The notes under the pieces were generated by a model. That model was not told the origin of the DNA and made no database searches. It worked only from the letters and a program-made list of their open reading frames with translations. The position numbers and the translations under genes are program-made. Below, in pieces: positions 38,304-54,105 of a stretch of 64,000 nucleotides of DNA (the first letter of the stretch is position 1; each line of letters begins with the position of its first letter). Origin of the DNA: Vicinamibacteraceae bacterium (GTDB lineage Bacteria > Planctomycetota > Phycisphaerae > Phycisphaerales > UBA5793); the NCBI GenBank assembly GCA_011525805.1, contig WYBR01000070.1, positions 1-64,000 of the forward strand, given 5' to 3'.

Positions 38304-39779
38304 ATGACGACTTTCCCGGCCGCCGCGTCGCCCTCCGAGCCCGAACGGCCCGCCCCGGTCGCCGCCGCCCGCCGCATTGACTCGCTCGACGCGATGCGCG
38401 GTTTCGCGGTGCTGGGCATTCTGATCATGAACATCCACTCGTTCGGCCTGCCGATGGCGGCGTACTTCAACCCGACGGTGGCGGGGGGGTTCGAGGGGGC
38501 GAACTACTGGATCTGGGTGATTGAACACCTCTTCGCCGACCTCAAGTTCATGAGCATCTTCTCGATGCTGTTCGGCGCGGGCGTGGTGCTCTTCACAAGC
38601 CGCATCGAGGCGAAGGGCGGCAGCGCGCTGAGCCTGCACGCCCGGCGCATGGGCTGGCTGCTGTTCATCGGACTCCTTCACGGCTACCTGCTCTGGCTGG
38701 GCGACATCCTCGTGCTCTACGCGCTGTGCGGCCTGGTGATCTACTGGGTCCGCAGGCTGCCCGCGACGCTGCTGGCGCTGCTCGGCGTTGCGTCCCTGAT
38801 GGTGACGACCGTCTTCGTGATCTTCTTCGGATTCTTCTTCGGAACGCTCCAGACGGCGCTCGAGGAGCACGACCGAACCGCGGCGATCGTCGCCCCGGCC
38901 GCGCCGACCGAAGCGGACGAAGCGGCAAGATCGGACGCCGCCTCCGAGACGCCGGTCGAAGGCGAGAGCAACGCCGCAGTCCAAACGCCACCGATCGAAG
39001 GCGGCGCGGAGGCGCCAGGCGCCGACGAGCGGCGCGAACTGACGATGGGAATGACCGTCGCGGAGATCCGGGAGACGCTGCGGGAGATGCGCGACGGCTG
39101 GAGCCCGCCGCCCGAAAAGGTCGAGGGCGAGATTGCGGCCATGACCGGCTCATACTTGGACGAGGTCGTCTACCGGGCGCCGGTCCTCGTGGGGATGCAG
39201 ATTTTCCTCATCGTGCTCTATTGCTGGCGGGCGATCGGCATGATGCTGCTGGGCATGGCGCTGTTCAAGTGGCGCGTGCTCAGCGCGGCCCGGTCGGCGA
39301 GGTTCTATGCGGGAATGACCGTTGTCGGTTTTGCCGTGGGGCTGCCGATCATCTGGCTCGGCCTGCAGCGTAACGTGCACGCGGAGTTCGACTTCATTGC
39401 CGCCCAGTTCACCAACTCGCACTTCAACTACTTCGGCAGCGTCTTCGTGGCGCTGGGCTGGATCGGCGCGATCATGCTCCTGTGCCGCACCGGCGCGATC
39501 GCGTGGCTGACGGCCAGCCTCGCCGCCGTCGGGCGCATGGCCTTCACGAACTACCTCATGCACACGATCATCTGCACCACGATCTTCAACGGCCGCAGTG
39601 GGCTGGGGCTGGCGAAGTTCGGCGAACTGGACCGCGCGCAACTGCTCGTCATTGTTGCGGGCATCTTCCTGGTGCAGATGATCGCCTCGCCGCTGTGGCT
39701 CAGCGCGTTCCGGTTCGGCCCCTTCGAGTGGCTCTGGCGCAGCCTGACCTACTGGCGGCTCCAGCCGATGCGGCGTTGA
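38304..39779 (+). CDS. DUF418 multi-pass membrane protein with acidic insert
   Basis: The 491-residue product opens with RIDSLDAMRGFAVLGILIMN, the DUF418 first helix. It then has about eight hydrophobic helices, with SIFSMLFGAGVVLF typical. A low-complexity acidic stretch (about 190-245) sits between helices. The C-terminal DUF418 part is RMAFTNYLMHTIICT. Acyltransferase-like membrane roles have been suggested for the family. GGAG lies just before the ATG. Confidence 0.85.
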   Translation: MTTFPAAASPSEPERPAPVAAARRIDSLDAMRGFAVLGILIMNIHSFGLPMAAYFNPTVAGGFEGANYWIWVIEHLFADLKFMSIFSMLFGAGVVLFTSRIEAKGGSALSLHARRMGWLLFIGLLHGYLLWLGDILVLYALCGLVIYWVRRLPATLLALLGVASLMVTTVFVIFFGFFFGTLQTALEEHDRTAAIVAPAAPTEADEAARSDAASETPVEGESNAAVQTPPIEGGAEAPGADERRELTMGMTVAEIRETLREMRDGWSPPPEKVEGEIAAMTGSYLDEVVYRAPVLVGMQIFLIVLYCWRAIGMMLLGMALFKWRVLSAARSARFYAGMTVVGFAVGLPIIWLGLQRNVHAEFDFIAAQFTNSHFNYFGSVFVALGWIGAIMLLCRTGAIAWLTASLAAVGRMAFTNYLMHTIICTTIFNGRSGLGLAKFGELDRAQLLVIVAGIFLVQMIASPLWLSAFRFGPFEWLWRSLTYWRLQPMRR

Positions 39780-46527: not shown

Positions 46528-46572
46528 CAATGGGCGTAACTGGACTTGAACCAGTGACCTCCTGCGTGTCGA
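46528..46572. other. Left attachment site, tRNA-Val 3' fragment
   Basis: These 45 nt are identical to 54029-54073, which covers the T arm, variable loop, anticodon stem 3' side and anticodon of tRNA-Val plus three bases beyond its 3' end. Beyond 46572 the sequence diverges, so this is not a functional tRNA. It marks the far junction of the element. Confidence 0.9.
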
Positions 46573-48609: not shown

Positions 48610-49533
48610 TCAGTTCAGGCGCACCGCCGCGCCGTCGCGGGCGAGGCGATCGCGGATCTCGATCAGGACTTGTGTGGCGACATCCTTGAATCCGCTGCCG
48701 CCCCCGCCAGTGCCTCCCGTGCGGACGCCGGCGGTGCGCACCGCGGTGAGCGTGTTCACTTCGACGGCGCGGCCGCTGGCGCGCCGCAGGCGCGAAAGCG
48801 CATCGGTGTACTGCTCCAGTGAAATCACGCCCTGGTCGAGCGCTTCTTTGAGCAGTTGCATGGACTCTCGGAAGTGGTCGGTGTGGTCTTTCAGGCCTTC
48901 CATCAGCGCCTTGAACCGATTGGCGACGTTGAGTTGCTCGTTGAGGTCAAACACCTCTTTGTCCGAGGCCCACCGCCGCGCGAGGCCGAGCGCCGAGTTC
49001 CCGCCCGTCGTCGCGTCGCTGATCTGCGCGCGCATCATTTCGAGTCGGCGCCGCCGCTCTTGCTGATCGCGGAAGGCCGCGTCATGCTGACTCTGGAAGG
49101 CCGTGGTGCGAATCTCAGACAGGCCCGAGAATTCGTTCCACTGCTCCTGCATCCAATCGACCACCCTGGCGCCGCGCCTGCCGCCGAGCAGGCTGGGCAT
49201 CGGCCACTTCTGCAAGCCCTCGCCGACCGCCCAGGTGAATCGCTCCGTGCGCGATTCCTGGAGCACTGAGAGGTCGCCGAGTTTGATGGTGGCCAGGCGC
49301 TCGAGTTCGCTGGCCAGCGTGCGCACCGCCATCGTCGCGGTGCCGATCGCGGCACCCGCGGAGAGGAAGCGGCCGGTGAGGATGCTGCCGAGTTTCTCAG
49401 CCGAGAATCCCGCCTTGCTGACACCCTTCTCGAAGCCCTGCACTTTGCGCTTCGCCTCGCCGACGTCGGCTTCAAGCCGGCTCGTGTCCATGCGGACGAT
49501 CGCGTTGAGTGTGGCGATTGCTTCACCAGCCAT
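48610..49533 (-). CDS. Tape-measure-like phage protein (short)
   Basis: The 307-residue product starts MAGEAIATLNAIVRMDTSRL, then VGEAKRKVQGFEKGVSKAGF and FLSAGAAIGTATMAVRTLA. This D-x-S-x-L start, then a coiled coil, then a Gly/Ala hydrophobic segment is the usual opening of phage tail tape-measure proteins. It is much shorter than a normal tape measure and lacks the long central repeat. The C-terminus is Gly-rich (GGTGGGGSG). It could determine a short tail, or be a relic. AAAGG precedes the ATG. Confidence 0.55.
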   Translation of the reverse strand: MAGEAIATLNAIVRMDTSRLEADVGEAKRKVQGFEKGVSKAGFSAEKLGSILTGRFLSAGAAIGTATMAVRTLASELERLATIKLGDLSVLQESRTERFTWAVGEGLQKWPMPSLLGGRRGARVVDWMQEQWNEFSGLSEIRTTAFQSQHDAAFRDQQERRRRLEMMRAQISDATTGGNSALGLARRWASDKEVFDLNEQLNVANRFKALMEGLKDHTDHFRESMQLLKEALDQGVISLEQYTDALSRLRRASGRAVEVNTLTAVRTAGVRTGGTGGGGSGFKDVATQVLIEIRDRLARDGAAVRLN

Positions 49534-49569: not shown

Positions 49570-50472
49570 TCAGCCCACGCCCGCGGCGATGCCCTGCGCC
49601 GCGCGCCGCTCGGCGATGCGCTGCGCCGCACTCGCTTCGCGCTCGGCGGCCTTTCCCGCCTGGCCTTCGATCCAGGCGAAGATCGTCTCTGGCGCCGCGT
49701 CCGCGCGGAGTAGGGCGCGCCAATCGCGCACCCGCTTCGCCGTCATGCCGTCCAGATCGGCGAGGTACTCACGCTTCGCTGGATCGGCGATGCCGGCCTG
49801 CTCGAGCGCGGTGAGCGTCATCGCTCGGGCCTCGGCGGCCGGGTCGCGCTTTGGCGGGTGTGCGCCGTCGGGAAGTGGAATCGGCTCGCCTGGCCGATGC
49901 AGCCGAAGCGTGCCGTTCGCCGAGGCGGTCCGGTTGCTCACCACCGCTTTCGCCGGCTCGGTCTTCCGCTCCACCGGCGCAGTCGAGCCACCACCACCGC
50001 CGCGCTTCGCGGCTGCATCGCTGTTGGATGGTGGTGGTGGGTTCTTTAACCGGGTATCTGATGGGTCGGTATGCGCTGCGCAGGGGGTGGGCGTGCGCTG
50101 CGCAGGGGCTGCGCGCGCGCTGCGCAGGGGGTCATCATGCGCGTGCGCAGGGGGTGCGCAGCGCACCCCCTGCGCAGCGCACTCCCCTTGCAGCCGTTCG
50201 AGGCAGATCCGGTACTCCGTCACAGCCGACTTTGATCCGCCCTTCGATCGCTCGCCGACAACCTCAATCCACCCCTCGGCCAGGAGTCGGCGAATGGTCC
50301 GGTTCGCGTGCCCGGCGTTCAGGCCACTCTTCGTCACCAGCGTCTTCATCGACGGCCGTATCCGGTCACCAGTCTTGTCGTCGGCGTAGGTGCTCATCGC
50401 CACGAGCATGAGGCGCATCGCGTTCGCGCGAGGCCCGTGCAGTAGCACTCTCTCTGTGGTGGCGTACCCCAT
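49570..50472 (-). CDS. Replication-initiator-like HTH protein
   Basis: The 300-residue product starts at the ATG at 50472, with GGAG 7 nt upstream. Residues 1-95 carry an HTH_36-type winged helix: AMRLMLVAMSTYADDKTGDR, then IRPSMKTLVTKSG and TIRRLLAEGWIEVV, typical of phage replication organisers. A low-complexity linker follows, rich in Ala, Pro, Arg and His, and this is where the iteron-like repeats lie. The C-terminal helices (MTLTALEQAGIADPAKREYL, then WRALLRADAA) may bind a helicase loader. Initiators often lie next to or over their own origin. Confidence 0.65.
   Translation of the reverse strand: MGYATTERVLLHGPRANAMRLMLVAMSTYADDKTGDRIRPSMKTLVTKSGLNAGHANRTIRRLLAEGWIEVVGERSKGGSKSAVTEYRICLERLQGECAAQGVRCAPPAHAHDDPLRSARAAPAQRTPTPCAAHTDPSDTRLKNPPPPSNSDAAAKRGGGGGSTAPVERKTEPAKAVVSNRTASANGTLRLHRPGEPIPLPDGAHPPKRDPAAEARAMTLTALEQAGIADPAKREYLADLDGMTAKRVRDWRALLRADAAPETIFAWIEGQAGKAAEREASAAQRIAERRAAQGIAAGVG
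50077..50176. repeat. Iteron-like direct repeats ending in a palindrome
   Basis: TGCGCAGGGG occurs at 50077, 50099, 50121 and 50144 (plus strand), at spacings of 22, 22 and 23 nt. An inverted copy lies at 50166-50176. The last direct copy and the inverted copy form a perfect 33-nt palindrome at 50144-50176, with a single central base. The array lies inside the initiator-like gene. Regular 22-nt spacing puts every copy on the same face of the helix, as in iteron origins. Confidence 0.85.
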
Positions 50473-50504: not shown

Positions 50505-50822
50505 TCACGCGCTGGCCTTCATGCCCCGGCGCCGGTTCAGTTTGCGCGCCGCCTCGGCCCGGGCCTCGGCCCGCTTCGATCGCCGAGGCTCCGCCTTCGC
50601 GGCGAAGTGCTCTTCGGCGCTCGCGTCGAGTTGGGCGGCGAAGGCATCCAAGGCGGCGCGTTCGACGTAGAGCCGGGCCCCGATGCGCTTGTGGGGGAGT
50701 TTGATCCGCTCGCCGTTGCGCGCGAGGATGCCGTAGCGCGTCCATCGCCAAATTGACGCCGGACACACTGGACGGGCGAGGCTGCGGGCGGCCTGGGCGG
50801 GCGTGAGCAGTTCCGATTCCAT
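50505..50822 (-). CDS. HTH regulator or excisionase-like protein
   Basis: The ATG at 50822 has GGAGG 7 nt upstream; the product has 105 residues. LLTPAQAARSLARPVCPASI, then WRWTRYGIL and IKLPHKRIGARLYV, reads like a DUF1580/MerR-type winged HTH used by excisionases and plasmid regulators. The C-terminus is a basic Arg/Ala helix. It lies between the 196-residue gene and the initiator gene, and a 15-bp inverted repeat stands upstream. Confidence 0.65.
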   Translation of the reverse strand: MESELLTPAQAARSLARPVCPASIWRWTRYGILARNGERIKLPHKRIGARLYVERAALDAFAAQLDASAEEHFAAKAEPRRSKRAEARAEAARKLNRRRGMKASA

Positions 50823-50907
50823 GAGACAACCTCCATGCAGTCGCGGAGGTTGTAACACGTTCAACAATCGTCGGCGCTTGCAGGGCGGCGATTCCCTCAG
50901 AGATCGC

Positions 50908-50949
50908 GCGCGTTACCTAGGTGTCGCGCGCTTTACCTAGGTAACGCGC
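50908..50949. repeat. Perfect 15-bp inverted repeat, possible operator
   Basis: GCGCGTTACCTAGGT at 50908-50922 and ACCTAGGTAACGCGC at 50935-50949 are exact reverse complements with a 12-nt spacer. Each arm includes the palindrome ACCTAGGT, so there are two half-sites in tandem. It overlaps the stop of the 196-residue gene and lies about 85 nt upstream of the HTH gene, suggesting an operator or attenuating hairpin. Confidence 0.8.
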
Positions 50950-51507
50950 AATCTGCTCACGGCTCGTCGGGTAGTTCTGTGCCTTCCAATCTGGATGCTC
51001 GGCGATCGCGGCCGCGGCGGCGCGGTTGCTTCGCAGGCGGCCGGGACTCTCGGCGCGGAGCGTTTCGGCGAGGCGCCGGGCGAGTGTGCGGCGCTGCTCG
51101 AGCGCTTCGGGGCCGCCGAGTCGGCGCGCTCCCCCCTGAATCGACTTCATGCGTTCGGCCCACAGCGCTTCCCGCTCCCGATCAGTCGTCATCCCCAGCG
51201 TGAGGCACGCCCCCCATGCCGCCACTGCGGCCGCTCTGGCGTTGCCCGCGGCGGTGGCGTCGAGCATCAGGAATAGCCACTTCCCTGCGAGTTCACCATC
51301 CTCACCCGCTGCCCATCCGTAGGCGTCAACCTCACCACGCGCCAGCCCGGCCTCGCCCGCTTCAACTGCCGTGCGCATTCGCGCGATTGCACTTTGCATG
51401 ATGTCGGCGACGATACCGCCGTAGTGGTCTGCGGCGATGTCGAGCCGATCCCGCTTGCGCCGCCGTCCCGTTGGCGCGCCGCTCCGCTTGCGCTTCTTCT
51501 TCGCCAT
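50917..51507 (-). CDS. Hypothetical basic element protein
   Basis: The 196-residue product starts MAKKKRKRSGAPTGRRRKRD, very basic, then a helical region (GGIVADIMQSAIARMRTAVE) and a C-terminal HPDWKAQNYPTSREQIARYL segment that could be a helix-turn-helix. The nucleic-acid-binding look is clear, but the family is not known. The stop codon lies within a 15-bp inverted repeat. A small-terminase-subunit-like role is possible but not supported. Confidence 0.5.
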   Translation of the reverse strand: MAKKKRKRSGAPTGRRRKRDRLDIAADHYGGIVADIMQSAIARMRTAVEAGEAGLARGEVDAYGWAAGEDGELAGKWLFLMLDATAAGNARAAAVAAWGACLTLGMTTDREREALWAERMKSIQGGARRLGGPEALEQRRTLARRLAETLRAESPGRLRSNRAAAAAIAEHPDWKAQNYPTSREQIARYLGKARDT

Positions 51508-51618
51508 GCCCCACCTACTTCCGAGAGTGCGATCCGGGCCGACGCGGCGTAGGTGGAAACCGCGCCGGCGCCGGATCGCCCGGCCGCCCGTCGGCGGCCG
51601 GTTGGCCACGAGATCGTA

Positions 51619-52185
51619 TCAGCGCTCGAGGCCCGCCCAGTCGCGCTCGGCGAAGGCGCCCACGTGGCGGTGCTGCATCGTGCCGTCGGCCTGGGGAATG
51701 AGCATCCCCTCGATCACGCCGACTTCACTGCAATCGCGGCTGAGGTCTTCCAGGTCGCCCAGGTCGAAGAGGTCGCCAGGCTCGGGCGGATCTCCGCCGG
51801 TGAAGGCGAGGCCGGGCGGGATCAGGATCGCGCGGGAGCAGTCGGCGTCGATCCAGATATGCCGGAGTCGAAGGGCAGACCCGCCGCCCGGGCGCGGCAG
51901 GCGCACGAGCACGAGATTCCCGTCCTGCCAGCGCTCGTGAACGTAGAAGAGCCACGATCCGCGCGGCACATGCGGCTCGTAGGCGTCCGTCTCGACGCCC
52001 ACGATGCAGGGATTCCAACCGCCCAGGATCAGGTCATCCAGGAGCGGCGCGTTGTACCGGCCGCCCTTCTCGCGCCACAAATCCATCGCCGGCGATGCCG
52101 CCGCGATGAGGCGCACGTCGTCCCCCTCGGCCGTCCGAAGCGGGTTGTAGTTCATCCAGTCGGGCTTGATGATCGTCGGTTGCAT
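51619..52185 (-). CDS. Hypothetical protein, weakly S24/LexA-like
   Basis: The 188-residue product has VETDAYEPHVPRGSWLFYVH, then DGNLVLVRLPRPGG and LRLRHIWIDADCSRAILIPP, which parallels the beta-rich S24 peptidase fold of LexA/CI repressors (GDSMxPxIxxGDxVLV). The catalytic Ser of the GDSM motif is not present and no HTH precedes it. AAAGGTAGGTG lies upstream of the ATG. It may be a non-catalytic anti-repressor or something else. Confidence 0.45.
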   Translation of the reverse strand: MQPTIIKPDWMNYNPLRTAEGDDVRLIAAASPAMDLWREKGGRYNAPLLDDLILGGWNPCIVGVETDAYEPHVPRGSWLFYVHERWQDGNLVLVRLPRPGGGSALRLRHIWIDADCSRAILIPPGLAFTGGDPPEPGDLFDLGDLEDLSRDCSEVGVIEGMLIPQADGTMQHRHVGAFAERDWAGLER

Positions 52186-52648: not shown

Positions 52649-53911
52649 TCATCCCACCTCTCTCGCCACGGCCAGGGCGCGGCGGTTGTCGGCCTCGGCG
52701 TAGTGCTGCGCCATCGTGATTGTCGAGTGCCCGAGCAGCGTCCGCGCGACCTCGAGGCCGTGCGTCCGCCGCAGTTCGGTTGCAACAGTGTGCCGGATCT
52801 GGTGCGGGTGCCAGTGCGGGATGGGCGCCCACTCAACGCCGTCGGCCACGCTCTGCGCTTTGCGCTCGGCGTTGGCCTTGCGGACGGCGCGGGCGATCGC
52901 CCGGGCGTAGCCGGTGACGTCGTAGCGGTCCCGCGGCGGTCGGCGGCGCTTCGCCACTCGATTCGTCCCCGGTCGGTTGCCGGCGTTGAGCGGAGTCGTG
53001 CGGGCCGCGTGCCGCTCGGCGAGGCGGTCCGCTTCCGAGGCTGCCGGGCTGAACAGGTACGCTCCAGGCGGGCGGCGGAGCATCAGGGGCCGGAGAATCG
53101 CCTGGGCGCCCGGGCCGAAGTAGAGCGTCCGCTCGTGGCCGTGGTGCCGCGTCTTGTGATGCTCGAGCGCCGCCGTCCAGACGTCCCCGCTCGTGTCGAT
53201 GTCGCCCGGGCGCAGGCTCAGGAGTTCGCCGCTGCGGGCGCCGGTGAGTCGATGCAGGCGCACGAGGTCCGCCAGGTCGCGGGGCAGGTGGGGGAGCGTC
53301 GCCTCGATCGCGTCATCAGGGACGGGCCGCACCGGCTCAGGCTCAGGTGCTTCGGAGCGGCCGCGGGCGAGGCCTCGGACGGCCCGCAGCCCTTCGTAGA
53401 CGCTCGGCGGGATCTGCTCTTCCTCCACCGCCCACCGGAACATCGCCTTGATGCGCCCCACGTCACGATTGATCGACGGCCGCACGCGCCCCGCGGCGAT
53501 CATGTCGGCCCGGACGGCCTTGAGCGCGCGAGGCCCGAAGTGCGCCGCCGGCGTCGAGCCGTAGAGGCGGCGCAGGACCGCCAGGGCGCGGGTGATGGTC
53601 GCCACTTCCGAGGTCGGCCGGCCCTCGGCGTCGCGGTAGTGGACGTCGCACCGCTCCAGGTAAGCGGCGATGATCTCTTCGACGGTGAGCAGTTCATCAT
53701 CGCAGGCCCGGCGCCGGCCATCGGGGAAGTCGATGCCCTGGCCGGCCCGCCATTGGGCGATCAGGCGGGCGTAGCGTTCGCGCGACGCGGCGGCGCCGTA
53801 GTCGCCGAGGTAGATGCGGGGGCGGCCGGGGAACAGGACGAATGCGCGGTCGGGCCGCGTGCCCGCCCCGCCCTGGCGTCGATACGCTGGAATCCGCTGC
53901 TTCGAGGGCAT
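52649..53911 (-). CDS. Tyrosine recombinase / integrase
   Basis: The ATG at 53911 has GGAGG 5-6 nt upstream; the product has 420 residues. The catalytic residues are in place: Arg in LTGARSGELLSL, HQIRHT with His at about 370 and Arg at about 373, LLGHSTI with His at about 395, and HYAEAD with Tyr at about 404. The N-terminus reads like a core-binding domain (LTVEEIIAAYLERC). The gene ends near the tRNA-Val attachment site, as is usual for tRNA integrases. It catalyses insertion and excision of the element. Confidence 0.95.
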   Translation of the reverse strand: MPSKQRIPAYRRQGGAGTRPDRAFVLFPGRPRIYLGDYGAAASRERYARLIAQWRAGQGIDFPDGRRRACDDELLTVEEIIAAYLERCDVHYRDAEGRPTSEVATITRALAVLRRLYGSTPAAHFGPRALKAVRADMIAAGRVRPSINRDVGRIKAMFRWAVEEEQIPPSVYEGLRAVRGLARGRSEAPEPEPVRPVPDDAIEATLPHLPRDLADLVRLHRLTGARSGELLSLRPGDIDTSGDVWTAALEHHKTRHHGHERTLYFGPGAQAILRPLMLRRPPGAYLFSPAASEADRLAERHAARTTPLNAGNRPGTNRVAKRRRPPRDRYDVTGYARAIARAVRKANAERKAQSVADGVEWAPIPHWHPHQIRHTVATELRRTHGLEVARTLLGHSTITMAQHYAEADNRRALAVAREVG

Positions 53912-54028
53912 GCGCGCCTCCACCCGAGGATGCCGGATATCCCGTCGGATACCGGTTTCTCGCGTCGAAAGGCCGCGCCGCCCCGTTGGCGGGTGGCCGC
54001 ATCATGCGGCCCCGGCTGTGCTTGCGAT

Positions 54029-54073
54029 CAATGGGCGTAACTGGACTTGAACCAGTGACCTCCTGCGTGTCGA
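54029..54073. other. Right attachment site within tRNA-Val
   Basis: These 45 nt are identical to 46528-46572. They cover the 3' part of the tRNA-Val gene from just past base 73 to about the anticodon. The integrase gene is 118 nt away. Confidence 0.9.
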
Positions 54074-54105
54074 GCAGGCGCTCTAGCCAACTGAGCTATA
54101 CGCCC
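54032..54105 (-). tRNA. tRNA-Val(GAC)
   Basis: The 74-nt gene folds as a normal cloverleaf: acceptor GGGCGTA pairs with TACGCCC, D stem GCTC/GAGC, anticodon stem CCTGC/GCAGG, T stem ACTGG/CCAGT with TTCAAGT in the loop. The anticodon loop reads TCGACAC, so the anticodon is GAC (Val) and position 33 is C instead of the almost universal T. No CCA is encoded. It hosts the attachment site of the element. Confidence 0.9.

Follow-up and report, generated by a model that had tools for sequence, protein, structure and literature searches.

An intragenic iteron array in an O-like initiator gene as the candidate replication origin of a planctomycete tRNA-Val island

Why would a regularly phased repeat array lie within the coding sequence of a planctomycete gene, and could it be the replication origin of a mobile element? 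The window, i.e., the whole stretch of 64,000 nucleotides that we analyzed, carries the gene in question on its minus strand, where an ATG at 50472 opens a reading frame of 300 amino acids. The original prediction read the repeats as an iteron origin located inside the gene for an HTH replication-type protein; it mentioned neither a tRNA-integrated element around the gene nor the lambda-O likeness of the layout. We conclude that, with high probability, this array is the candidate replication origin of a 7.5-kb element integrated at a tRNA-Val gene, and that, like the origin of phage lambda, it resides inside the gene for the element's own initiator. The features of the array are as follows (window coordinates, strand).

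50072 to 50181, minus strand: iteron array, with four direct copies (22/22/23 nt), an inverted copy and TGCGCWGCGCA dyads
50077 to 50086, plus strand: iteron core 1, TGCGCAGGGG
50099 to 50108, plus strand: iteron core 2
50121 to 50130, plus strand: iteron core 3
50144 to 50153, plus strand: iteron core 4
50167 to 50176, minus strand: inverted iteron core 5
50144 to 50176, no strand: 33-nt palindrome, cores 4 and 5 flanking the dyad at 50155-50165; 0 of 1000 codon shuffles reach it
50028 to 50072, minus strand: candidate unwinding element, the 45-nt GC minimum; in homologues the mean GC falls at this position too

The claimed four direct copies, at spacings of 22, 22 and 23 nt, are indeed present: TGCGCAGGGG starts at 50077, 50099, 50121 and 50144, spanning 50077-50153. 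So is the perfect 33-nt palindrome that was said to follow the array, at 50144-50176, with 16-nt arms and a 1-nt center. It overlaps copy 4, and since a fifth, inverted copy of TGCGCAGGGG at 50167-50176 closes it, the palindrome is copy 4 facing copy 5. Dyads of the form TGCGCWGCGCA overlap the iteron copies at 50072, 50094, 50116 (with one mismatch), 50155 and 50171. A perfect 16-bp stem could form in the transcript, and the palindrome might be thought to control expression as an mRNA hairpin; we consider this highly unlikely, as the palindrome consists of a forward iteron and a reverse one, the direct 22-nt copies in all frames would be left unexplained, and the homologues described below share the spacing, not such a stem.

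Read on the minus (coding) strand, each direct copy is CCCCTGCGCA; the four fall in frames 1, 0, 1 and 2 and are translated as PAH, PLR, PAQ and PCA, respectively. An in-frame peptide repeat was therefore rejected as the source of the array, given that the copies rotate through all three frames. A genome-wide palindromic repeat family was also considered and rejected: the 14-mer GCGCWGCGCAGGGG occurs only 6 times in the 4.54-Mb genome, and 4 of these occurrences are in this array. To obtain a null distribution, synonymous codons were permuted such that protein and codon usage were kept. The lag-22 self-alignment score of the gene is 28, compared with a shuffle maximum of 17 (none of 3000 shuffles reaches the array), and the palindrome arm of 16 nt compares with a shuffle maximum of 10 nt (0 of 1000). 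High GC content and short tandem-like units would also suit replication slippage, that is, a functionless tandem duplication in GC-rich sequence. What argues against slippage within the array itself is that copies 1-3 have the same 14-nt core (GCGCTGCGCAGGGG) but differ in their 8-nt spacers, and that one copy is inverted; together with the homologue data below, this makes slippage a very improbable explanation. The GC minimum of the gene in a 45-nt window (50028-50072; 51% vs. 70%) abuts the array, and the 30- and 45-nt minimum windows both start exactly where the array ends. This AT-rich dip, modest at 51% GC, is a candidate unwinding element.

The gene that contains the array has the following features.

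49570 to 50472, minus strand: O-like initiator CDS, 300 aa, with a winged-HTH, a low-confidence linker and a C-terminal helical part (ATG at 50472, stop at 49570-49572)
50275 to 50316, minus strand: codons for the predicted recognition helix within the winged-HTH (model helix 55-68, numbering from 50478), a role assigned by analogy

The 300-aa protein matches two PHROG families of 'replication initiation O-like' proteins, phrog_391 (E=1.1e-7) and phrog_270 (1.6e-7), and both matches extend over the winged-HTH and the linker. The array lies inside this gene, just past the winged-HTH. Pfam returned weak MarR/winged-HTH matches at best and no Rep_3 domain, and sequence and fold searches of the PDB gave generic winged-HTH matches at most. 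A direct search of phages, plasmids, viral contigs and genome contigs found no relatives of the full-length protein. An AlphaFold model from a three-sequence input is poor overall (pLDDT 54); it consists of a winged-HTH, then approximately 100 residues at pLDDT 31-43, then C-terminal helices. With this poor model as the query, BFVD matches were mostly phage HTH proteins, gpO-like ones among them. According to the model, the array encodes approximately residues 100-136, i.e., the start of the pLDDT 31-43 linker, directly after the winged-HTH. By analogy, helix 55-68 is predicted to be the recognition helix.

Phased dyads would also be expected of a regulator's binding site, and the Pfam matches of the domain are to MarR-type regulators. 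The array might then be an operator, bound by the winged-HTH protein, the HTH_17 protein encoded nearby or a repressor to control transcription through the gene, with replication starting elsewhere. We regard an operator as improbable: the array lies about 300 nt inside the gene, the PHROG matches are to replication initiators, and homologues have their repeats at the same intragenic position beside a GC-poor stretch, as does lambda.

If the array is an origin, what does it replicate? The initiator gene lies within a 7.5-kb element bounded by a 45-nt exact duplication of the 3' end of a tRNA-Val gene. An empty attB was found in the same-genus genomes G003 and G004 (loci L120 and L121), where both flanks overlap at one intact site. 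The features of the element are listed below.

46528 to 46572, plus strand: att duplication, left end of the element (45-nt exact repeat)
54029 to 54073, plus strand: att duplication, right end, over the 3' end of tRNA-Val (45-nt exact repeat; empty site in L120 and L121)
54032 to 54105, minus strand: tRNA-Val (gac), the integration target
52649 to 53923, minus strand: tyrosine integrase (Pfam PF00589 1.6e-14, phrog_1 1e-32)
50505 to 50822, minus strand: HTH_17/excisionase-like (AlpA-like) gene (Pfam HTH_17 2e-5, just under its cut-off; phrog_66 1.9e-5)
50917 to 51609, minus strand: 230-aa gene with no assigned function; first 37 residues 86% identical in a sister element
51619 to 52185, minus strand: 188-aa gene that fits no family convincingly; the sister element (L119) has a weak relative
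48610 to 49533, minus strand: tail-tape-measure-like coil protein (weak phrog_2854 0.009; 58% identical relative in a same-genus genome)

Pfam and PHROG searches recognized no helicase loader (P-like) among the nine proteins of the element, which include small ones with no annotated function. A possible operator lies between the 230-aa and HTH_17 genes (50904-50949), where two repeats of 20 nt are built around TTACCTAGGT and accompanied by a TTACCTAGGTAA dyad. The sister element is in the same genome, beside a tRNA-Thr gene (L119:9598-19445, contig C59). It and the window element have related integrases and related HTH_17 genes, a shared start of the 230-aa gene and weakly related genes of the 188-aa type. 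At the position of the O-like gene, the sister element has a primase/helicase gene (phrog_239); it also carries a head-protease fusion (phrog_4523). Four small genes of the window element have relatives, in a changed order, at another same-genus locus (L118, on contig C16 of G004), whose contig stops before any replication gene.

To find homologues of the initiator, a three-protein (three-row) profile from within the order was needed; it gave matches in 48 of 400 same-order genomes. The order set comprised 50 homologue ORFs long enough to test, and 927 other ORFs of the same loci served as controls. The mean lag-22 score was 12.1 in the homologues and 5.1 in the controls, and a score of at least 12 was reached by 36% of the former vs. 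0% (0/927) of the latter. Lag 22 was the best lag in 22 of the 50. The control ORFs repeat chiefly at multiples of three, as expected of in-frame peptide repeats, and 22 is not such a multiple. This pattern, and the lack of 22-nt arrays in the other genes of the loci, again speak against slippage.

Because the order set had served to find the signal, a second set was drawn from outside the order, at the level of class and phylum. The best lag was 21-24 in 33 of these 86 held-out ORFs, with minor peaks at 17 and 34, and lag 23 scored at least 12 in 28% of them vs. 0 of 130 controls. Against synonymous shuffles, the out-of-frame lags 20/22/23 were significant (p<=0.01) in 28 of 49 order genes and in 37 of 86 held-out genes, compared with 0-5 and 5-16, respectively, for other sets of lags. 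Hence about 43-57% of the tested homologues have no significant array by this out-of-frame test; some of these are unrelated HTH regulators, and others may have degenerate or differently placed origins. Tight spacing at 22 nt thus characterizes the order, and the phylum ranges over 21-24 nt. Just past the arrays, mean GC is 0.55 vs. a gene mean of 0.64 (30 homologues).

The repeat and linker sequences usually differ between homologues while the spacing recurs. The check proposed with the original prediction, namely whether spacing is kept in homologues while linkers vary, thus came out in its favor, in the 50 homologues of the order as well as in the 86 held-out ones. Slippage does not account for divergent homologues that share spacing but not sequence. 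The frame rotation and the homologue comparison together also bear out, for the linker, the claim that DNA constraint overrides protein constraint. The reading as an iteron origin is likewise strengthened, on the grounds of the O-like family, an array beyond what codon shuffles produce, the adjoining GC minimum and the layout in homologues; we therefore retain the array as a candidate origin.

The homologues may lie in islands as well. A tRNA gene lies within 4.5 kb in 28 of 49 homologue loci of the order, mostly 1.3-2.2 kb downstream of the initiator and on the opposite strand. Exact att-like repeats alone give candidate boundaries, from which candidate element sizes are 4.9 kb (L041), 5.9 kb (L064), 8.3 kb (L080 and L066) and 9.7 kb (L040); a 4.1-kb candidate in L054 terminates close to the end of its contig and could be an effect of the assembly. 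The gap in L064 contains an ORF judged by eye to be integrase-like. In L040 (6472-16263), the 9.7 kb between att-like repeats at a tRNA-Cys gene hold an O-like gene and a long ORF that by eye is methyltransferase-like, possibly defence cargo. One locus, L137, comes from a record titled Leptolyngbya sp. PLA1 (cyanobacterium); its contig matches G189, of the same order as the window, and the title is probably a misnomer. A search of the window's assembly for 16S rRNA came up empty.

Does the iteron sequence change together with the domain presumed to read it? L155 and L226 are two copies in one genome (G694). Their DNA is approximately 99% identical over the first 50 codons, approximately 60-65% identical from the recognition helix through the array, and then approximately 93% identical over the next 40 codons, so that a contiguous block looks to have been exchanged. 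G694 has five related initiator genes (L155, L207, L216, L226 and L259) with two iteron types, L216 and L259 being shortened or rearranged. The L187/L190 pair, from a single genus, shows more widespread differences than L155/L226, with a DNA identity of 77-90% over codons 4-64; their recognition helices read GKNTVLRAV vs. SRDTVLRAI, and the proteins also differ in the wing and elsewhere. Most copies of their dyads read GTCCC-AAAAT-GGGAC vs. GTAGC-AAAAT-GCTAC, with AAAAT centers and spacing unchanged. In L165/L250, the recognition helices differ by few residues, the iterons are similar and the linker peptides are unlike. All three contrasts were picked after viewing the closest pairs and are therefore suggestive only. 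A search for further pairs in the G694 and G793 families yielded none that were new, and one fifth, partial copy in G694. When domain and iteron similarity were compared all-against-all in 80 array-bearing genes, little relation was seen below about 50% domain similarity, and little beyond a few close pairs.

These comparisons suggest, for two close pairs and thus very few, that the iterons changed together with the DNA-reading domain. Tentatively, and with the odds at present against it, we propose that the iterons inside the gene and the recognition helix may, in elements of planctomycetes, form one linked specificity cassette, exchanged or re-tuned as a unit. Such exchange would leave sister elements with origins blind to one another, the selective force being the compatibility of elements that share a cell; the proposal draws so far on L155/L226 and L187/L190.

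By analogy with lambda, the array very likely works as lambda's origin does, the gene being a distant member of the lambda-O kind. We infer binding, dimerization, wrapping, melting, helicase recruitment, excision and replication. The integrase would first excise the element. The initiator would then bind the dyad-containing iterons as dimers through its N-terminal winged-HTH, and the 22-bp spacing, about two helical turns, would place the dimers on one face of the DNA. The initiators would assemble a wrapped complex and open the adjoining AT-richer stretch, whereupon the C-terminal part would bring in the host helicase. The iterons are encoded within the linker, a segment that joins the two parts of the protein and may tolerate nearly any peptide.

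The lambda-O layout is now seen in an island of 7.5 kb from a planctomycete. A test that preserves the protein also finds it in dozens of divergent initiators across the phylum, which keep the spacing but change the sequence. Because both the reading domain and the site it presumably targets are found in every gene, the set amounts to a natural library of initiator-origin pairs; such a library could be used to deduce the recognition code and how it evolved. The pairing is testable, since relatives across the phylum have the same layout and different repeats. For elements not yet characterized, the approach points to a simple means of finding the origin.

How does this candidate origin compare with known systems? 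In iteron plasmids with Rep_3 initiators, the iterons usually lie outside the gene. The window element resembles these plasmids in its phased direct repeats of a replicon-specific site, but it has no Rep_3 and its iterons are inside the gene. Like Gram-negative PICIs, it is a small integrated island with an integrase, an AlpA-like HTH_17 gene and a replication module; of PICI gene content, which excludes phage structural genes, the integrase, HTH_17 and O-like genes are present, along with one weak tape-measure-like match (phrog_2854 0.009). However, the PICIs measure 12-15 kb, vs. 7.5 kb here, and the window element has no known helper. In PICIs the origin is found 3' of the replication gene, where two sets of iterons flank an AT-rich region (PMC6092414), whereas the window candidate is intragenic, and on this count the likeness to PICIs fails.

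Closer parallels are found among phages. In Pseudomonas phage MD8 and in Vibrio phages, genes annotated as O-like (PHROG 391/270 kind) are related to a homologue of the window protein, and they too have intragenic repeats, already noted within the MD8 gene (PMC8508860). They differ from the window in iteron sequence and period (17 nt in MD8) and are carried by proteobacterial phages. Significant intragenic repeats were detected in 8 of 9 phage O-like genes, mostly at about 20-24 nt, with 1.036 falling below significance; the exceptions in period are MD8 (17 nt), SJM3 (best 13, then 23) and Pam5 (43, then 23). MD8 alone among the phage O-like genes viewed has an annotated P neighbor. An IMG/VR relative gave just a short ORF that has no array.

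In lambda, O dimers bind inverted-repeat iterons and wrap the DNA, the adjoining 40-bp A+T-rich region opens, and P delivers the helicase (PMC5043065, PMC3985674). As a positive control, our method detects the annotated intragenic iterons of lambda O at 39034, 39054, 39078 and 39101. The window differs from lambda in its tighter spacing (22 nt vs. 20/24/23) and its terminal inverted copy, in having no recognized P gene, and in belonging to a 7.5-kb planctomycete tRNA island, not a phage; its kinship is to O-like families at the profile level, with none found to lambda O itself. What the two have in common is the layout: a winged-HTH N-terminus, intragenic dyad iterons directly after it, an adjoining AT-rich region and a separate C-terminal part. 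Intragenic origins of the lambda-O type were already known in phages (lambda and MD8). New here are the phylum of the host, the setting in an island, the wide range of homologues compared and a possible exchange of reader and target as a linked pair.
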